From positions 1-21,787 of IMG/VR virus record IMGVR_UViG_3300027806_000175: a stretch of 21,787 nt of DNA. One strand, written 5' to 3'. The DNA is from a virus. Under the pieces are notes generated by a model. That model saw only the letters and a program-made list of their open reading frames with translations. It was not told where the DNA came from and ran no database searches. Of this stretch, positions 8,337 through 13,904 are shown piece by piece. A program made the translations under genes and the position numbers. Numbering within the stretch: position 1 is the stretch's first letter; every line of letters starts with the position of its first letter.

Positions 8337-8403
8337 GTCGAGAGTGCGTGAATACAATACCTTCGGGGAATAAACGCACACTACATGAATGACACCTCTC
8401 GAC
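8337..8403 (+). ncRNA. Structured RNA element or terminator-like fold
   Basis: A perfect 8-bp outer stem, GTCGAGAG (8337-8344) with CTCTCGAC (8396-8403), encloses a second stem GTGCGT/ACGCAC (8344-8349 and 8374-8379). The inner loop contains CCTTCGGG, a C(UUCG)G tetraloop. The element starts 8 bases after the stop of the P6 gene and has no T-run. It could be a small RNA, a processing or stability element, or a DNA site for packaging. It is not a tRNA: no anticodon arm, T-loop or CCA. Confidence 0.5.
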
Positions 8404-8495
8404 ACAATCCATTGTTCTTTGTTAATGGTTTATGAAGCATCACAAGCGTTACAAAGCAACGCCGTGTGGGATTATTTAGTGTTGAATGGCTTGTG

Positions 8496-8557: not shown

Positions 8558-9394
8558 ATGGGGTGTGGCAATGTCACATCCCATTTTTTGTGTCAACTCA
8601 CATTACGTTACAGGAATGGAAACGTTACAACCAGTCCCCAGCACAAACATCCCACCCGTGGTAGAATTACAACCACCCGCCCCCAATCACAAGTGCCCAA
8701 CCAATCTGATTACAACGAAGACACGAATGAAGATACAACACAGTATGACTTTGAATACAATGACGCTGAAGATGAATCACAAGATGATGCTACTGTTGAT
8801 GTCAATCCTTTTGGTTTTGATAGTGATGACAATACCCAAGAAGAAGTTATTCTCGCGCCCACTAACTCCTCCCCCACAACCAAAACACATTCCTGGCTAT
8901 ACAGGTCACAGTACGCCCCTCTTGAATCTGAACGAGAATTTCAATTCCTACAATCCTTCCTAGAACTGGGAGGGGGTCGATCAATACAATATATCTCGCA
9001 GATACTCAATATACAAGAATCAACCATCTACAAGATTTATTGCAAGAACAATTGGAAGCTACGTGCTGCTGATTACGACAGGTACATGCTATCCCAGAAG
9101 ATCAAGCTGTCCCAGGATGCAAGACAACAGGAACACTTAATGCAACTGGAGAGGTATCGCCAGGAACAAGAAGCAATTGGTCGGCAGCTAAGTATGAATG
9201 CAGCAAAGATTGCACAACTTGCCAATGCCACCTTGAATACAATGCTGGACAATGCAGAAAACATTACAGTACGGGACATGCCATCAATGTTAAACGCTGC
9301 TGCCAAGTTAGCTGACATCGGGAAGCAATTACAATCTACCGCACTTGGTGTCGATCAACTGTTAGTTGCATTGGAGGAGTCCGAGGTTGAATAG
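8558..9394 (+). CDS. terS: Terminase small subunit-like protein, 278 aa
   Basis: Proposed DNA-recognition subunit of the packaging motor. Residues 1-110 are disordered: a Thr/Gln-rich start and then a highly acidic linker. From about residue 116 (PLESEREFQFLQSFLELGGGRS) comes a helix-turn-helix-like domain (IQYISQILNIQESTIYKIYCKNNWKLRAADYDRYML). A long helical region follows (QQEHLMQLERYRQEQ), and then a region I recall from terminase-small-like proteins of cyanobacterial phages and prophages (ATLNTMLDNAENI, MPSMLNAAAKLADIG). ATG 8558 is the only ATG ahead of the domain and has no clear Shine-Dalgarno, so the exact start is uncertain. Unusually, the large subunit lies 3.1 kb downstream. Confidence 0.6.
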   Translation: MGCGNVTSHFLCQLTLRYRNGNVTTSPQHKHPTRGRITTTRPQSQVPNQSDYNEDTNEDTTQYDFEYNDAEDESQDDATVDVNPFGFDSDDNTQEEVILAPTNSSPTTKTHSWLYRSQYAPLESEREFQFLQSFLELGGGRSIQYISQILNIQESTIYKIYCKNNWKLRAADYDRYMLSQKIKLSQDARQQEHLMQLERYRQEQEAIGRQLSMNAAKIAQLANATLNTMLDNAENITVRDMPSMLNAAAKLADIGKQLQSTALGVDQLLVALEESEVE

Positions 9395-9559
9395 CAACGA
9401 GTATTGCATTACATTGCAACGGCTGTCAAGTTGCATTACAACGTTGTGCGTGGTCGCATTGCAACCATAGGGATTGCCGTACAGGCCATAAATAATAATA
9501 AGCAACTCCCGAGATCGACTGCGCCGCAATGGATCTCAAACCGGGAATTTGACAATCCC

Positions 9560-10042
9560 ATGGCGAGAACCCCAGTCCACGACAGGGTTTTACAAAACTC
9601 GTTTACAATTCGGGGCCGCCCGGAACCCATCCCAAATTTCTACAAAATGCAACTAACTACAAGCCTTGGTACGTTACCTCCATGGAGTGCAAGACTGCTT
9701 AAAATACTTCGCAACAGGGGTGATCTCAATCTTTCGATGACATCATTTGCAATACTTGCCACGCTTATTGACGTTTCTTATTGCAAGATGTTGATACATT
9801 ACAATCTGGTGGAATTCGCAGAAGAAACCATCATTCATGAAAGAACAATGCGGCGAGCAATACAAGACCTGCGTGAACTTGATCTCATTCGCATGGTAGA
9901 TTACAAAGAGAAAAAATACATTATTGTCGATCCCTTGCTTGCAAACCCTGGCACCAAGCAACAGAGAACCCACAAGATACAAGTTTGGAATAACGCCATT
10001 CAATACAAGCGCATTCGCAACACTGATCTGGGCCATTCATGA
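9560..10042 (+). CDS. Winged-helix DNA-binding protein, RepL-like, 160 aa
   Basis: The C-terminal half reads as a winged helix. Helices run through the LSMTSFAILATLIDVSYC region, then comes the recognition helix (HERTMRRAIQDLRELDLIRMV), a wing (DYKEKKYIIVDP), and LLANPGTKQQRTHKIQVWN. The last pattern, an NP near a Gly and then an Arg and a Trp, recalls plasmid/phage replication proteins of the RepL type. I prefer ATG 9560. The frame stays open upstream to a TTG at 9404, but that extension looks like translated motif repeats. The gene's last codons overlap the first unit of a repeat array, as when a replication initiator lies beside its iterons. A transcription regulator is the main alternative. 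Confidence 0.5.
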   Translation: MARTPVHDRVLQNSFTIRGRPEPIPNFYKMQLTTSLGTLPPWSARLLKILRNRGDLNLSMTSFAILATLIDVSYCKMLIHYNLVEFAEETIIHERTMRRAIQDLRELDLIRMVDYKEKKYIIVDPLLANPGTKQQRTHKIQVWNNAIQYKRIRNTDLGHS

Positions 10043-10210
10043 CAAGCCCCAGGCCCATTCATAACAAGCCATTCACGCATTCATTACATTACAACGCCAT
10101 TCACATTACATCGCAACGCCATTCATTACAGGCGATTGCGCCATTCATTACATCGCAACGCCATTCATAATACATTACAACGCCATTCATTACATTACGC
10201 CATTTACCTT
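10031..10210. repeat. Iteron-like array, block 1 (20-22 bp units)
   Basis: About nine degenerate copies of a unit close to GCCATTCATTACATCGCAAC. They begin near 10032, 10053, 10068, 10096, 10118, 10140, 10160, 10182 and 10199. Most spacings are 20-22 bases, about two helical turns, with one of 28. The first copy overlaps the stop of the RepL-like gene. Open frames across it are only translated repeats. A candidate initiator-binding array. Confidence 0.8.
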
Positions 10211-10254
10211 ATTGCATTACGCTTGCGCCACGTTACGTTACGCCCGTTCCGTGC

Positions 10255-10330
10255 TACAATACAACAAGTACGCCTTACAATACAACGAATGCACGTTACA
10301 ATACAACGCCCCGGTGCATTACAATACAGC
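10255..10330. repeat. Iteron-like array, block 2 (TACAATACA units)
   Basis: Four copies of TACAATACA(A/G)C at 10255, 10276, 10297 and 10320, so spaced 21, 21 and 23 bases. The phasing matches block 1 with a different core. This points to one protein or filament contacting the same face of the helix across both blocks. Confidence 0.75.
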
Positions 10331-10704
10331 TGCAGTTACATTACAATGCACAGCCTTCTACATTACATTACGATCGAATTACAATACATTGCAATCGCTG
10401 TTTGTTACATAGCAATTGCTGATAGATAACAATACATAGCAGATGCTAAACACAATGATACATTGCAATCGCTAAATACAACAAACCCAACCGATGCAAG
10501 ATAGGGTGCCGGCGCTGATGCAAACCGCGCCAGGTGTTAGTTACATCGACCTGCCGGTTCCCCACAATTCCCGCGTTTTTATCTGTATGGCACGGCTGCT
10601 AGCACGTTCCCGCAACGGCTAAAAACGAATGTTTTTTGCGGTTCACCGTCCTACAACGTGGCGAGACTGTTACGGTTTGCAAACCGGTTTAGCCTGTAGG
10701 TTGC
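10331..10704. other. Non-coding region between repeat arrays and alanine-rich gene
   Basis: No credible gene. From 10331 to 10480 the DNA is A+T-rich and carries further repeats. ATACATTGCAATCGCT occurs exactly twice (10384 and 10458), and ACATAGCA...TGCT occurs twice, once as the palindrome AGCAATTGCT. From 10480 to 10704 the composition becomes more G+C-rich and holds overlapping palindromes at 10673-10690. I see no confident sigma-70 promoter. Together with the two arrays this would suit a replication origin with an unwinding region. Confidence 0.5.
10673..10690. promoter_or_regulatory. Overlapping palindromes, candidate operator
   Basis: CGGTTTGCAAACCG (10673-10686) is a perfect 14-bp palindrome, and AAACCGGTTT (10681-10690) is a second one overlapping it. 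They lie 15 bases before the likely GTG start of the alanine-rich gene. A dimeric regulator could bind there and block expression. Confidence 0.5.
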
Positions 10705-11619
10705 GTGGCAGGCAGGGGGTTGTATGATTCCTGCAACGGGACAAACCTCTACCAGTCCCGCCTACCGGAAAAAACCGTGCCCAACAATCGCAAGAACAAC
10801 GGCCGCTCCTTCAACTACGTCAAGGATGCCGCTGCTGCTGCTGATCGGATCGCCGCTGCTGCTGCTGCTGTGGCCGCTGATCCTGACGCTGCTACCGCTG
10901 TGGCCGCTGCTGCTGACGCCGCCGCTGCTGCTGCTGTGGCCGTGGCTGACGCTATGGCGACCGGCGACCTTACTGCTGCTGCTGCTGCTGCTGCTGACGC
11001 CGTGGCCGCTGCTGATTCTGCTGAGAGGATCGCCGCAAGTGTGGCCGCTGCTGACGCGGCAGAGGACGCCGCTGTGGCAGAGGACGCCGCTGTGGCAGAG
11101 GATGCCGACGATCCGGTAATGCTGGAGCTTGATACGCTCCTAGCGTCAATGGCGGCCCCCCTGCCCCCCCTGCCGACCGTTGAGAAGGGTTCACGTACCG
11201 TCAAGCCCGGACAGCCTGTCTGGGAGCCTGATGCGATCACGCGCGCCGCAATGGAGCGCGCTGGCTGGGGAATCAGTGAGAAGATCAATACTGGTTACAG
11301 TCCGCGTGACATTGATGCTCTGACGCGTCCAATCATCACATCGATCAGTGCCAATGAAAAGCGCGGTAAATTGCAGAAACATGCCCTGCTTAATTGGGTT
11401 ACAGCTCAAACGAACTTGACCAGTAAGGGTGGCAGTGCCAGGGTTGTATCACTGGCAGCATATATGATCCAACACAAAGATACGTTTAAGGGCGTGGCAC
11501 GGTTTAATACGTTGGAGGGCACTCTTAATGCTCTCGCAGATTACTGCGGCAGGGTAGTCCTTCGCCGTGGCGATGTTATCACATTTTCCAACAAGCAGGA
11601 GGAGAATCGCAAGCGCTGA
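10705..11619 (+). CDS. Alanine-repeat protein with unknown C-terminal domain, 304 aa
   Basis: Residues 41-135 are almost entirely Ala with spaced Asp, Val and Thr, encoded by runs of GCTGCTGCT and GCCGCT. They probably form one long helix or a flexible rod. After a Pro-rich hinge (PLPPLP), the last 130 residues look like a normal folded domain (VWEPDAITRAAMERAGWGISEKIN; then a helical end with FNTLEGTLNALADYCGR) that I do not recognise. The start is uncertain. GTG 10705 is the first possible codon after an in-frame stop and has a poor ribosome-binding site. Such proteins can be DNA-binding (histone-like) or structural. The triplet runs should vary in length between relatives. Confidence 0.65.
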   Translation: MAGRGLYDSCNGTNLYQSRLPEKTVPNNRKNNGRSFNYVKDAAAAADRIAAAAAAVAADPDAATAVAAAADAAAAAAVAVADAMATGDLTAAAAAAADAVAAADSAERIAASVAAADAAEDAAVAEDAAVAEDADDPVMLELDTLLASMAAPLPPLPTVEKGSRTVKPGQPVWEPDAITRAAMERAGWGISEKINTGYSPRDIDALTRPIITSISANEKRGKLQKHALLNWVTAQTNLTSKGGSARVVSLAAYMIQHKDTFKGVARFNTLEGTLNALADYCGRVVLRRGDVITFSNKQEENRKR

Positions 11620-11661: not shown

Positions 11662-11760
11662 TACATTGCAATACATCGAAGCAGAGGTTACGATGCAATA
11701 AGGAATGGGTTACAATTTAGCCGGGGTGGGTTACATTTTGCGCGGAACGGCGGCGACCAC

Positions 11761-11995
11761 CCACTCCCAAATTTTTTTCCCGTTTTCAACGGGCCCACCA
11801 CCAAATTTTTTTTCCATTTTCACCAAACCCACCCCTAGATTTTTTTTCCAATTTCACCAAGCCCACCACCAAATTTTTTTCCCAATTTCAACGACCACAA
11901 TTTTTTTCCCATTTTCAACAAATCCTTCCCAACCACAATATATTTTCACCACACCATATAACAACAAGTCCTTGCCACCAAATTTTTTTCCAAAA
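11761..11995. repeat. 33-34 bp T-tract repeat array
   Basis: About seven degenerate copies of a unit that begins CCCACCACCAAA, continues with a run of 7-8 T, and ends CCAATTTCACCAA. They start near 11761, 11794, 11828, 11862, 11895 and 11928, with a final copy near 11968. The spacing is about 33-34 bases. Because the period is not a multiple of three, the frame that stays open across it (11705-12046) is not a repeat protein. Phased A/T-tracts like these bend DNA. The array fills the gap between the + strand alanine-rich gene and the minus-strand cassette. Confidence 0.8.
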
Positions 11996-12468: not shown

Positions 12469-12500
12469 TGCTTTAAGATTCCGACAGAGGGTTGACACGA

Positions 12501-13904
12501 ATGCCGATCAAGGCAAAGGCGACACGATATGCGGACCAGGCATCGCTGCGCGGATTGGGGCTACTGGCAGATCAAGCGATCTTGAATCGGCTATCGAAGC
12601 GAACGAAATCGAGACTGGATGGCGAGGATCTTGAATCCAGGCTGGTTGCTGATTTACTGCCGTATCAGCGTGACTTTGTATGTGACTTTGATCACAAGTA
12701 CGTTGGGTTCTGTGCGGGCTACGGTTCTGGTAAATCTTACAGTGCCGTAATAAAAGCAATTCTTCTTTGCTTGCGATCTCCTGGCTTCACGCATTTGTTT
12801 CTGGAGCCCACCGTTCCGCTAATCATGGACGTGGCGCTACCTACTTGGTTCCAGGTGCTGGAGAAATACTCGATCCCGTATGAGTTCCGCGCTTCTCCCC
12901 GCCCGAACATCATTCTGAAGATTCCCGGTGGTGACACTCCGATACTACAGCGGTCGCTTGAAAACTACCAACGTCTCGTCGGTGTCAATGCTGCTTCACT
13001 GGTAGCTGATGAAATTGACACGTCCAGGCATGACATTGCCGAGAAAGCAATGGTGAAGCTGCAGGGTCGCGTTCGTGTTGGTAACTGCCCACAAATTTGC
13101 ACCGTGTCAACGCCTGAAGGCTTTGCATGGATGTATTCCTTCTACGTTAAAGAACCAGCTGACAACAAGAAGCTGTATAAAGGTAAGTCCCGCGAAAACC
13201 CATACCTTGATCCCGGTTTTATTGCTGACCTCGAATCTAAGTACCATCCGTCACTGATTAAGGCGTATCTCGAAGGTGAGTTCGTCAACCTTGAATCTGC
13301 CACTGTCTTCTACGAGTTCGATCGACAGAAGCATTCCACTGGTCTGTTTCATCCCGAAGCCGGTGAACGCATTGTGTTTGGCGCTGACTTCAACGTGGGT
13401 CAATGCCAATCCGTTTATGGTGTTGTCCGTCCTGGTCCTGGTGGTCAGCAGCTGCACTGTTTTGATGAAGCTCGTGTCCCTGATACCTTTGCGCTTGTTG
13501 CTCATCTGCAACGCAAATTCCCACGTCATCTGGCGAATGGCATGATCACCTGCTACCCGGACGCCAGCGGCAGCCACGGCTCGACTGCCTCGACCCAGAG
13601 CGACCACGACATCCTGCGGAATGCCGGCGTGCAGGTGGTGACGGAGCGCCGCAACCCGCCGATCGCGGAGACCCTGGCCCACACCAACCTCTACATCCAC
13701 CGGAATTGCATTCTCGTCAATCCAACGACCTGTTACGACACCATTGCATCACTGGAGCAATGGGTGTATGACAGCAAGACGATGAAGCCGTTGAAGGGTG
13801 GTGCCACCGACCACTCCCATGCTGGTGATGCGTTCCGCTACCTCGTTTGGCAGGTATTCCCCAGGGCTGGTATGCGTGCTGGCTATGGCCCGCGTTGGAA
13901 GTAG
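12501..13904 (+). CDS. terL: Phage terminase large subunit, 467 aa
   Basis: ATPase-nuclease that cuts the replicated genome and drives it into the prohead. Walker A is AGYGSGKS (residues 72-79), Walker B is SLVADEID (166-173, Asp170 and catalytic Glu171), and the coupling motif is TVSTPEG (201-207). The RNase H-like nuclease has candidate metal-binding Asp296 (GADFN), Asp354 (PDASG) and Asp443 (HAGDAFRY). The length is normal and all key motifs are intact. ATG 12501 was preferred to the TTG at 12492. Codons for residues 354-393 lie in a patch of about 72% G+C against about 50% on either side, which suggests recombination inside the gene. Confidence 0.95.
   Translation: MPIKAKATRYADQASLRGLGLLADQAILNRLSKRTKSRLDGEDLESRLVADLLPYQRDFVCDFDHKYVGFCAGYGSGKSYSAVIKAILLCLRSPGFTHLFLEPTVPLIMDVALPTWFQVLEKYSIPYEFRASPRPNIILKIPGGDTPILQRSLENYQRLVGVNAASLVADEIDTSRHDIAEKAMVKLQGRVRVGNCPQICTVSTPEGFAWMYSFYVKEPADNKKLYKGKSRENPYLDPGFIADLESKYHPSLIKAYLEGEFVNLESATVFYEFDRQKHSTGLFHPEAGERIVFGADFNVGQCQSVYGVVRPGPGGQQLHCFDEARVPDTFALVAHLQRKFPRHLANGMITCYPDASGSHGSTASTQSDHDILRNAGVQVVTERRNPPIAETLAHTNLYIHRNCILVNPTTCYDTIASLEQWVYDSKTMKPLKGGATDHSHAGDAFRYLVWQVFPRAGMRAGYGPRWK

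Follow-up and report, generated by a model that had tools for sequence, protein, structure and literature searches.

We found that the late region of this phage carries, next to its small terminase gene, a cluster of direct repeats that on sequence evidence is a candidate pac-like packaging-recognition region of the lineage, a reading to which we assign about half of our confidence, and we consider the array more likely to be a packaging-start signal than a plasmid-type replication origin. The window (the whole stretch of DNA analysed here, 21,787 nt, from IMGVR_UViG_3300027806_000175) is part of a circular phage genome of 71,284 bp (~71.28 kb), as revealed by the record IMGVR_UViG_3300042691_019356, which is 71,317 bp long, closes to 71,284 bp through a 33-bp end overlap, and matches the window with zero mismatches. 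The gene order in the late region is terS (terminase small subunit), a winged helix-turn-helix (wHTH) protein gene, the repeat arrays, an Ala-rich ORF, terL (terminase large subunit), portal, scaffold and major head protein. The genome also encodes a sigma-70 family factor (L036:11365-12231; genome 47458-48327, - strand) for which the closest plasmid-borne proteins come from cyanobacteria (Nostoc, Acaryochloris), so the host of the phage is probably a cyanobacterium.

Evaluating the repeats, we found three arrays, all read on the + strand. Array A (9995..10206) holds ten CATTCA units, starting at 9997, 10034, 10056, 10070, 10078, 10098, 10120, 10142, 10162 and 10184 (successive spacings of 37, 22, 14, 8, 20, 22, 22, 20 and 22 bp), the first two of which start within the last codons of the wHTH gene (9560..10042, + strand, with the stop codon ending at 10042). 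The hexamer is confined to one strand: within 960 bp all 10 copies lie on the + strand and the - strand has none, and the + strand count exceeds that of every one among 200 dinucleotide shuffles (mean 0.42, maximum 2). Array B (10254..10388), which is lineage-specific, has TACAATACA copies at 10255, 10276, 10297 and 10320 (21, 21 and 23 bp apart) and one more at 10380, while array C (10384..10473) is made of TACAT(A/T)GCA...GCT units at 10385, 10406, 10433 and 10459, with exact copies of ATACATTGCAATCGCT at 10384 and 10458, variants at 10406 and 10433, and steps of 21-27 bp. Upstream of the wHTH gene, an array-C-like copy at 9410 lies in a short repeat-like stretch of the TACATTGCAACGGCT type (9403..9445, + strand; repeat families D4, D5 and D7) between terS and the wHTH gene. 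The cluster occurs a single time in the complete 71-kb genome, and the array stretch is mildly A+T-rich (GC 0.42 vs 0.50 genome-wide).

These observations partly support a sequence-only reading of the same DNA, which had placed phased repeats at 9560-10480 and taken them for a replication origin: support extends to the layout, not to the function. The repeats are present where it had placed them, its four further units at 21-23 bp spacing correspond to array B, and direct repeats do adjoin a gene for a DNA-binding protein. Its nine units at 20-22 bp were right in beginning inside the end of the wHTH gene but proved to be ten CATTCA copies at spacings of 8-37 bp, and its A+T-rich stretch lies below the genome mean in GC, though only mildly.

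Other repeats and low-complexity stretches were seen in the same genome and its relatives. The Ala-rich ORF (10705..11619, + strand), the gene next after the arrays, has an Ala-rich N-terminus followed by a C-terminal domain and contains GCT/GCC trinucleotide runs; its counterparts (L016, L020, L027, L029, L041, L337) look alike by eye in the Ala-rich start and C-terminal pattern, while phmmer matches pairs of them only. Five 34-bp tandem repeats of CCCACCACCAAATTTTTTTCCCAATTTCAACAAG lie at 11759-11921, 5' of terL, and the upstream region of a relative (L006) contains a 49-bp repeat in two copies. A CGGCTA hexanucleotide tandem repeat of about 33 copies lies inside or beside an ORF at genome positions 62957-63152 (circular map, window-based coordinates).

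To place the arrays in a comparative frame, nine loci with the wHTH gene were read closely (the window, L013, L016, L019, L020, L022, L027, L029 and L041), revealing a CATTCA array at or after the end of the wHTH gene in all nine, with 4-15 copies on one strand. A terS gene was visible in eight of them, the exception being L019, whose contig begins inside the cassette. Relatives that keep the wHTH gene thus keep the repeats beside it, both in these loci, which were the first examined, and in others that the motif by itself brought up (below), so the outcome that the sequence-only reading had named as its own refutation, repeats missing where the gene persists, is not what we see. What follows array A varies more among lineages, with elements related to array C (AGCAATCGTT, AGCGATTGCT) coming after array A in several relatives; the array region is very A+T-rich in L019, L020 and L022, whereas that of the window is mildly so. 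Spacing differs as well: several lineages have 18 bp, L027 has 13 bp and the window has 20-22 bp, and L041, L029 and others show no regular step. Aligned across lineages, the sites have CATTCA alone in common, so helical phasing is not the shared feature; the 20-22 bp spacing is a trait of the window's lineage, not of the array type, and two-turn phasing, which had been proposed as the hallmark of the arrangement, holds for this single lineage and gives way elsewhere to 13, 17-18 or 20-22 bp or to irregular steps.

The association of the array is with terS rather than with terL. The L009 genome (G011, a 109-kb contig; locus L337 = G011:C1:3000-13000) carries the whole cassette, namely terS (E 3e-76), the wHTH gene (E 5e-9) and the array, with the usual next gene after it, and terL lies 26 kb downstream. 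The array thus moves as one unit with terS-wHTH and independently of terL, and this separation rules out a simple terL-promoter role. Because the L009 genome keeps its cassette 26 kb away, TerL relatives that lack an array upstream of terL (L008/L009/L012/L018/L031) are invalid as negative controls, and the valid control is a scan with a permuted motif.

A motif scan was run across 2.9 million viral contigs for three spaced copies of GCATTCA or CCATTCA, using no protein information, with the permuted motif ACTTACG as control; the figures that follow are all among the matches listed. A TerS-family ORF lay within 3.5 kb of 57 of the 92 diverse-spacer arrays (51 on the same strand), compared to 0/26 for the permuted motif. 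For 62 of 93 evaluable diverse arrays TerL followed on the same strand at no more than 6 kb; it was upstream in none and on the opposite strand in one, while the control gave 0/4, or 0/25 counting simple arrays (Fisher on all arrays, p = 2e-7). The array-associated TerLs among these matches fall into 9 clusters at 70% identity and 3 at 50%, so the terminase linkage is not one lineage counted repeatedly, though redundancy remains.

Beyond many more terS-wHTH loci, the scan recovered two other arrangements. Group 1, that of the window, has the order terS1-wHTH-array; groups 2 and 3a (L139, L153, L227, L236, L164, L270, L250, L271) lack a wHTH gene at the array, which begins at the terS stop codon or a short way from it; and in group 3b an exonuclease gene (phrog_298) has the array lying across its 3' end, with terS about 2-2.5 kb and terL 3-4 kb downstream. 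In the gap between array and terL in group 2 (L236:4314-4757, L227, L139) there are genes opposite to the terL strand, including a second HTH protein that looks TerS-like by eye. What the arrays of all groups have in common is that they lie near terS and on the same strand as the packaging genes, and the simplest reading of this pattern would be a pac-like site for TerS assembly.

In the window, terS (8558..9394, + strand, 278 aa) matches phrog_6299 (E 2.8e-9) and is linked to terL (12492..13904, + strand; Terminase_6N E 2.2e-8; phrog_2 E 4.4e-34), which places it in the terminase small subunit family; a repeat-rich site linked to terS, one of the features of a pac-type region, is present. Its orthologues are 39-44% identical, and the TerS homologue of L049 (phrog_6299 E 2e-19) is encoded immediately 5' of terL. 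The protein has a low-complexity N-terminus, an HTH and a long coiled coil, the AF2 model showing an HTH and long helices, and structure comparison of TerS returned no significant PDB match. In the mechanism that we propose, the small terminase would assemble on the strand-specific CATTCA cluster of concatemeric DNA, the adjacent wHTH protein would probably take part in this assembly in the window's lineage, and TerL would then cut and package the DNA. What we observed is the array itself, the one direction in which its units run, a linkage to terS that persists in divergent phages, and no dependence on where terL lies; from these we infer that TerS and/or the wHTH protein may bind CATTCA, that cleavage or packaging may begin at the array, and that arrays B and C may have a part in packaging. 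The circular assembly is compatible with permuted headful ends.

Several points count against a packaging site. The TerS of the window's group (TerS1) has no detectable homology to TerS2 or TerS3, although these two are related to each other (hhalign E 1.4e-6), which leads us to reject a common ancestry of TerS in all groups; the group 3b array stands 2-2.5 kb before terS; and the array was not found in the related named phages S-H1, KBS-S-2A, MED4-184 and Vibrio LP.2, which removes the named cyanosiphoviruses as array carriers. We regard the first two, together with the contig ends described next, as weak points of the reading. In vitro, SF6 TerS showed little preference for its own pac repeats, which also counts against it (PMC4737164). 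Contig ends bear on the question too: two near-identical contigs from different metagenomes end at 8338 and 8375-8407, 150-220 bp before terS and about 1.6 kb upstream of the array, exactly where an inverted repeat lies (GTCGAGAG...CTCTCGAC; 8337-8344 / 8396-8403), and the contig of L013 likewise begins some 115 bp ahead of its terS ORF. These ends could be a real genome end (cos-like) or an assembly break, of which the former would count against a pac site.

Of the readings that assign the arrays another role, the one that survives best, though we think it unlikely, is a second, late origin resembling SPP1 oriR, in which the wHTH protein as initiator would bind the array, open the A+T-rich part, and start or switch replication next to the packaging genes. 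In its favour, nearly all closely read terS-wHTH loci have an array that begins at the end of the wHTH gene, array B is very A+T-rich in some relatives, and in SPP1 oriL lies within the initiator gene and oriR in the late region (PMC6316719). The general resemblance to SPP1 oriL/oriR and to lambda-type iteron origins is one of direct repeats in or beside the gene of a DNA-binding protein. The difference is that a separate replication module exists here, comprising an initiator gene (50195-51004; phrog_4707, 1.8e-16) and a DnaB helicase gene (51001-52449; 2.7e-55), at 50.2-52.4 kb and about 30-40 kb away from the arrays; the initiator gene carries repeats of its own, the module has no CATTCA array, and the phasing of the arrays is not conserved. 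Direct and inverted repeats within the replication initiator gene (L036:9051-9151) are themselves a candidate lambda/SPP1 oriL-like origin. Also against a late origin, arrays lie beside terS or the exonuclease gene where there is no wHTH gene, the spacing has no common helical phase, and GC skew shows a local C-rich dip at 8-12 kb without a clean switch on the 71.28-kb circle, leaving skew, which had been suggested as a check, uninformative as origin evidence here.

The identity of the wHTH protein weighs on the same question. The 160-aa product is a predicted DNA-binding wHTH protein, co-conserved with terS and the array: profile searches gave HTH_36 at E 0.0056, below the curated cut-off, and weak matches to DnaD-like and O-like PHROGs, and its AlphaFold (AF2) model (pLDDT 69) shows a wHTH followed by a C-terminal helix, with MarR- and SmtB-type wHTH proteins as the best Foldseek matches at low TM-scores. 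The weak similarity of the family to DnaD-like, O-like and RepL proteins speaks for an initiator, but all of these matches fall under cut-offs. For RepL in particular, to which the gene had been likened, PF05732 gave no hit for the window protein, an E-value of 0.0096 at best for two relatives, and none in five genomes, so the curated cut-off was never reached. RepL and other wHTH plasmid initiators share with this locus a small wHTH protein that adjoins repeats; they differ in that the family match failed and in that arrays here also occur without the protein. With this failure, the separate initiator and DnaB module, and plasmid genes not found, we reject a RepL or plasmid-type origin. The suggestion of a phage-plasmid fared no better, as the genome is circular but ParA, TubZ, RepL and integrase were not found in it. 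For group 1, where the protein is encoded between terS and the array, a role as packaging partner or regulator is plausible.

A packaging start might not be read by TerS by itself. Since TerS1 is not detectably homologous to the other TerS proteins, the presence of one motif in all groups calls for an explanation by remote homology, by convergence or by some third factor common to them. We think it improbable that environmental phages whose small terminases are non-homologous share CATTCA arrays as a signal for the start of packaging, and that what recognises it is not each TerS alone but a common factor, either a DNA-binding protein of the host or a phage partner that is conserved.

Regulation is slightly less probable than a late origin: at the end of an operon, the wHTH protein or a host factor would bind the repeats, or a CAUUCA copy in RNA, to regulate late transcription, termination or the stability of mRNA. 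Such a role would suit a strand-specific array at the 3' end of a wHTH, terS or exonuclease gene, the terminator-like hairpin or convergent genes that follow the array in some cases, the closeness of the wHTH fold to MarR/SmtB regulators, and the array-C-like copy that also lies upstream of the wHTH gene; at least 10 hexamers over 200 bp is nevertheless large for an operator, and the linkage is specifically to terS and holds with terL 26 kb away. We reject, as very improbable, a TubR/tubC- or ParB-like partition site of a phage-plasmid, for which centromeres are iteron arrays and the wHTH family profile weakly matches TubR (E 0.012), given that a search of five genomes for ParA and TubZ found neither and that the arrays follow terminase genes instead.

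Returning to the packaging-site reading, only a small number of phages have a known site of this kind, and sequence seldom allows one to be predicted. In several systems the binding of TerS to pac is noted to be weak and difficult to measure (PMC9611059). If the array marks the terminase region in divergent phages, the packaging start would become locatable in uncultured genomes, and the CATTCA array would offer a defined substrate for testing DNA recognition by small terminases and a wHTH partner. There is also a caution in it, as an iteron array beside a wHTH gene need not mean a plasmid origin. A literature search of titles and abstracts gave no evident description of CATTCA as a terminase motif, and we know of no description of such an array, though absence from the literature searched is not proof of novelty. 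Among known systems, the pac site of phage P1 consists of multiple irregularly spaced hexanucleotide elements, hexamers for Dam methylation, near the packaging gene pacA, and the arrays resemble it in having irregularly spaced hexamers close to a packaging gene; they differ in that CATTCA contains no GATC and in that P1 is unrelated to these phages. SPP1 and SF6 are a further precedent, with several sets of direct repeats near terS and an HTH-type TerS (PMC4737164, PMC6316719), SPP1 pac having three such sets around the start of the terS gene (PMC4737164; PMC6316719). In SPP1, however, pac covers the promoter and the beginning of terS, whereas the array described here lies downstream of terS or follows the wHTH gene, has a conserved hexamer as its unit, and turns up repeatedly in divergent phages.
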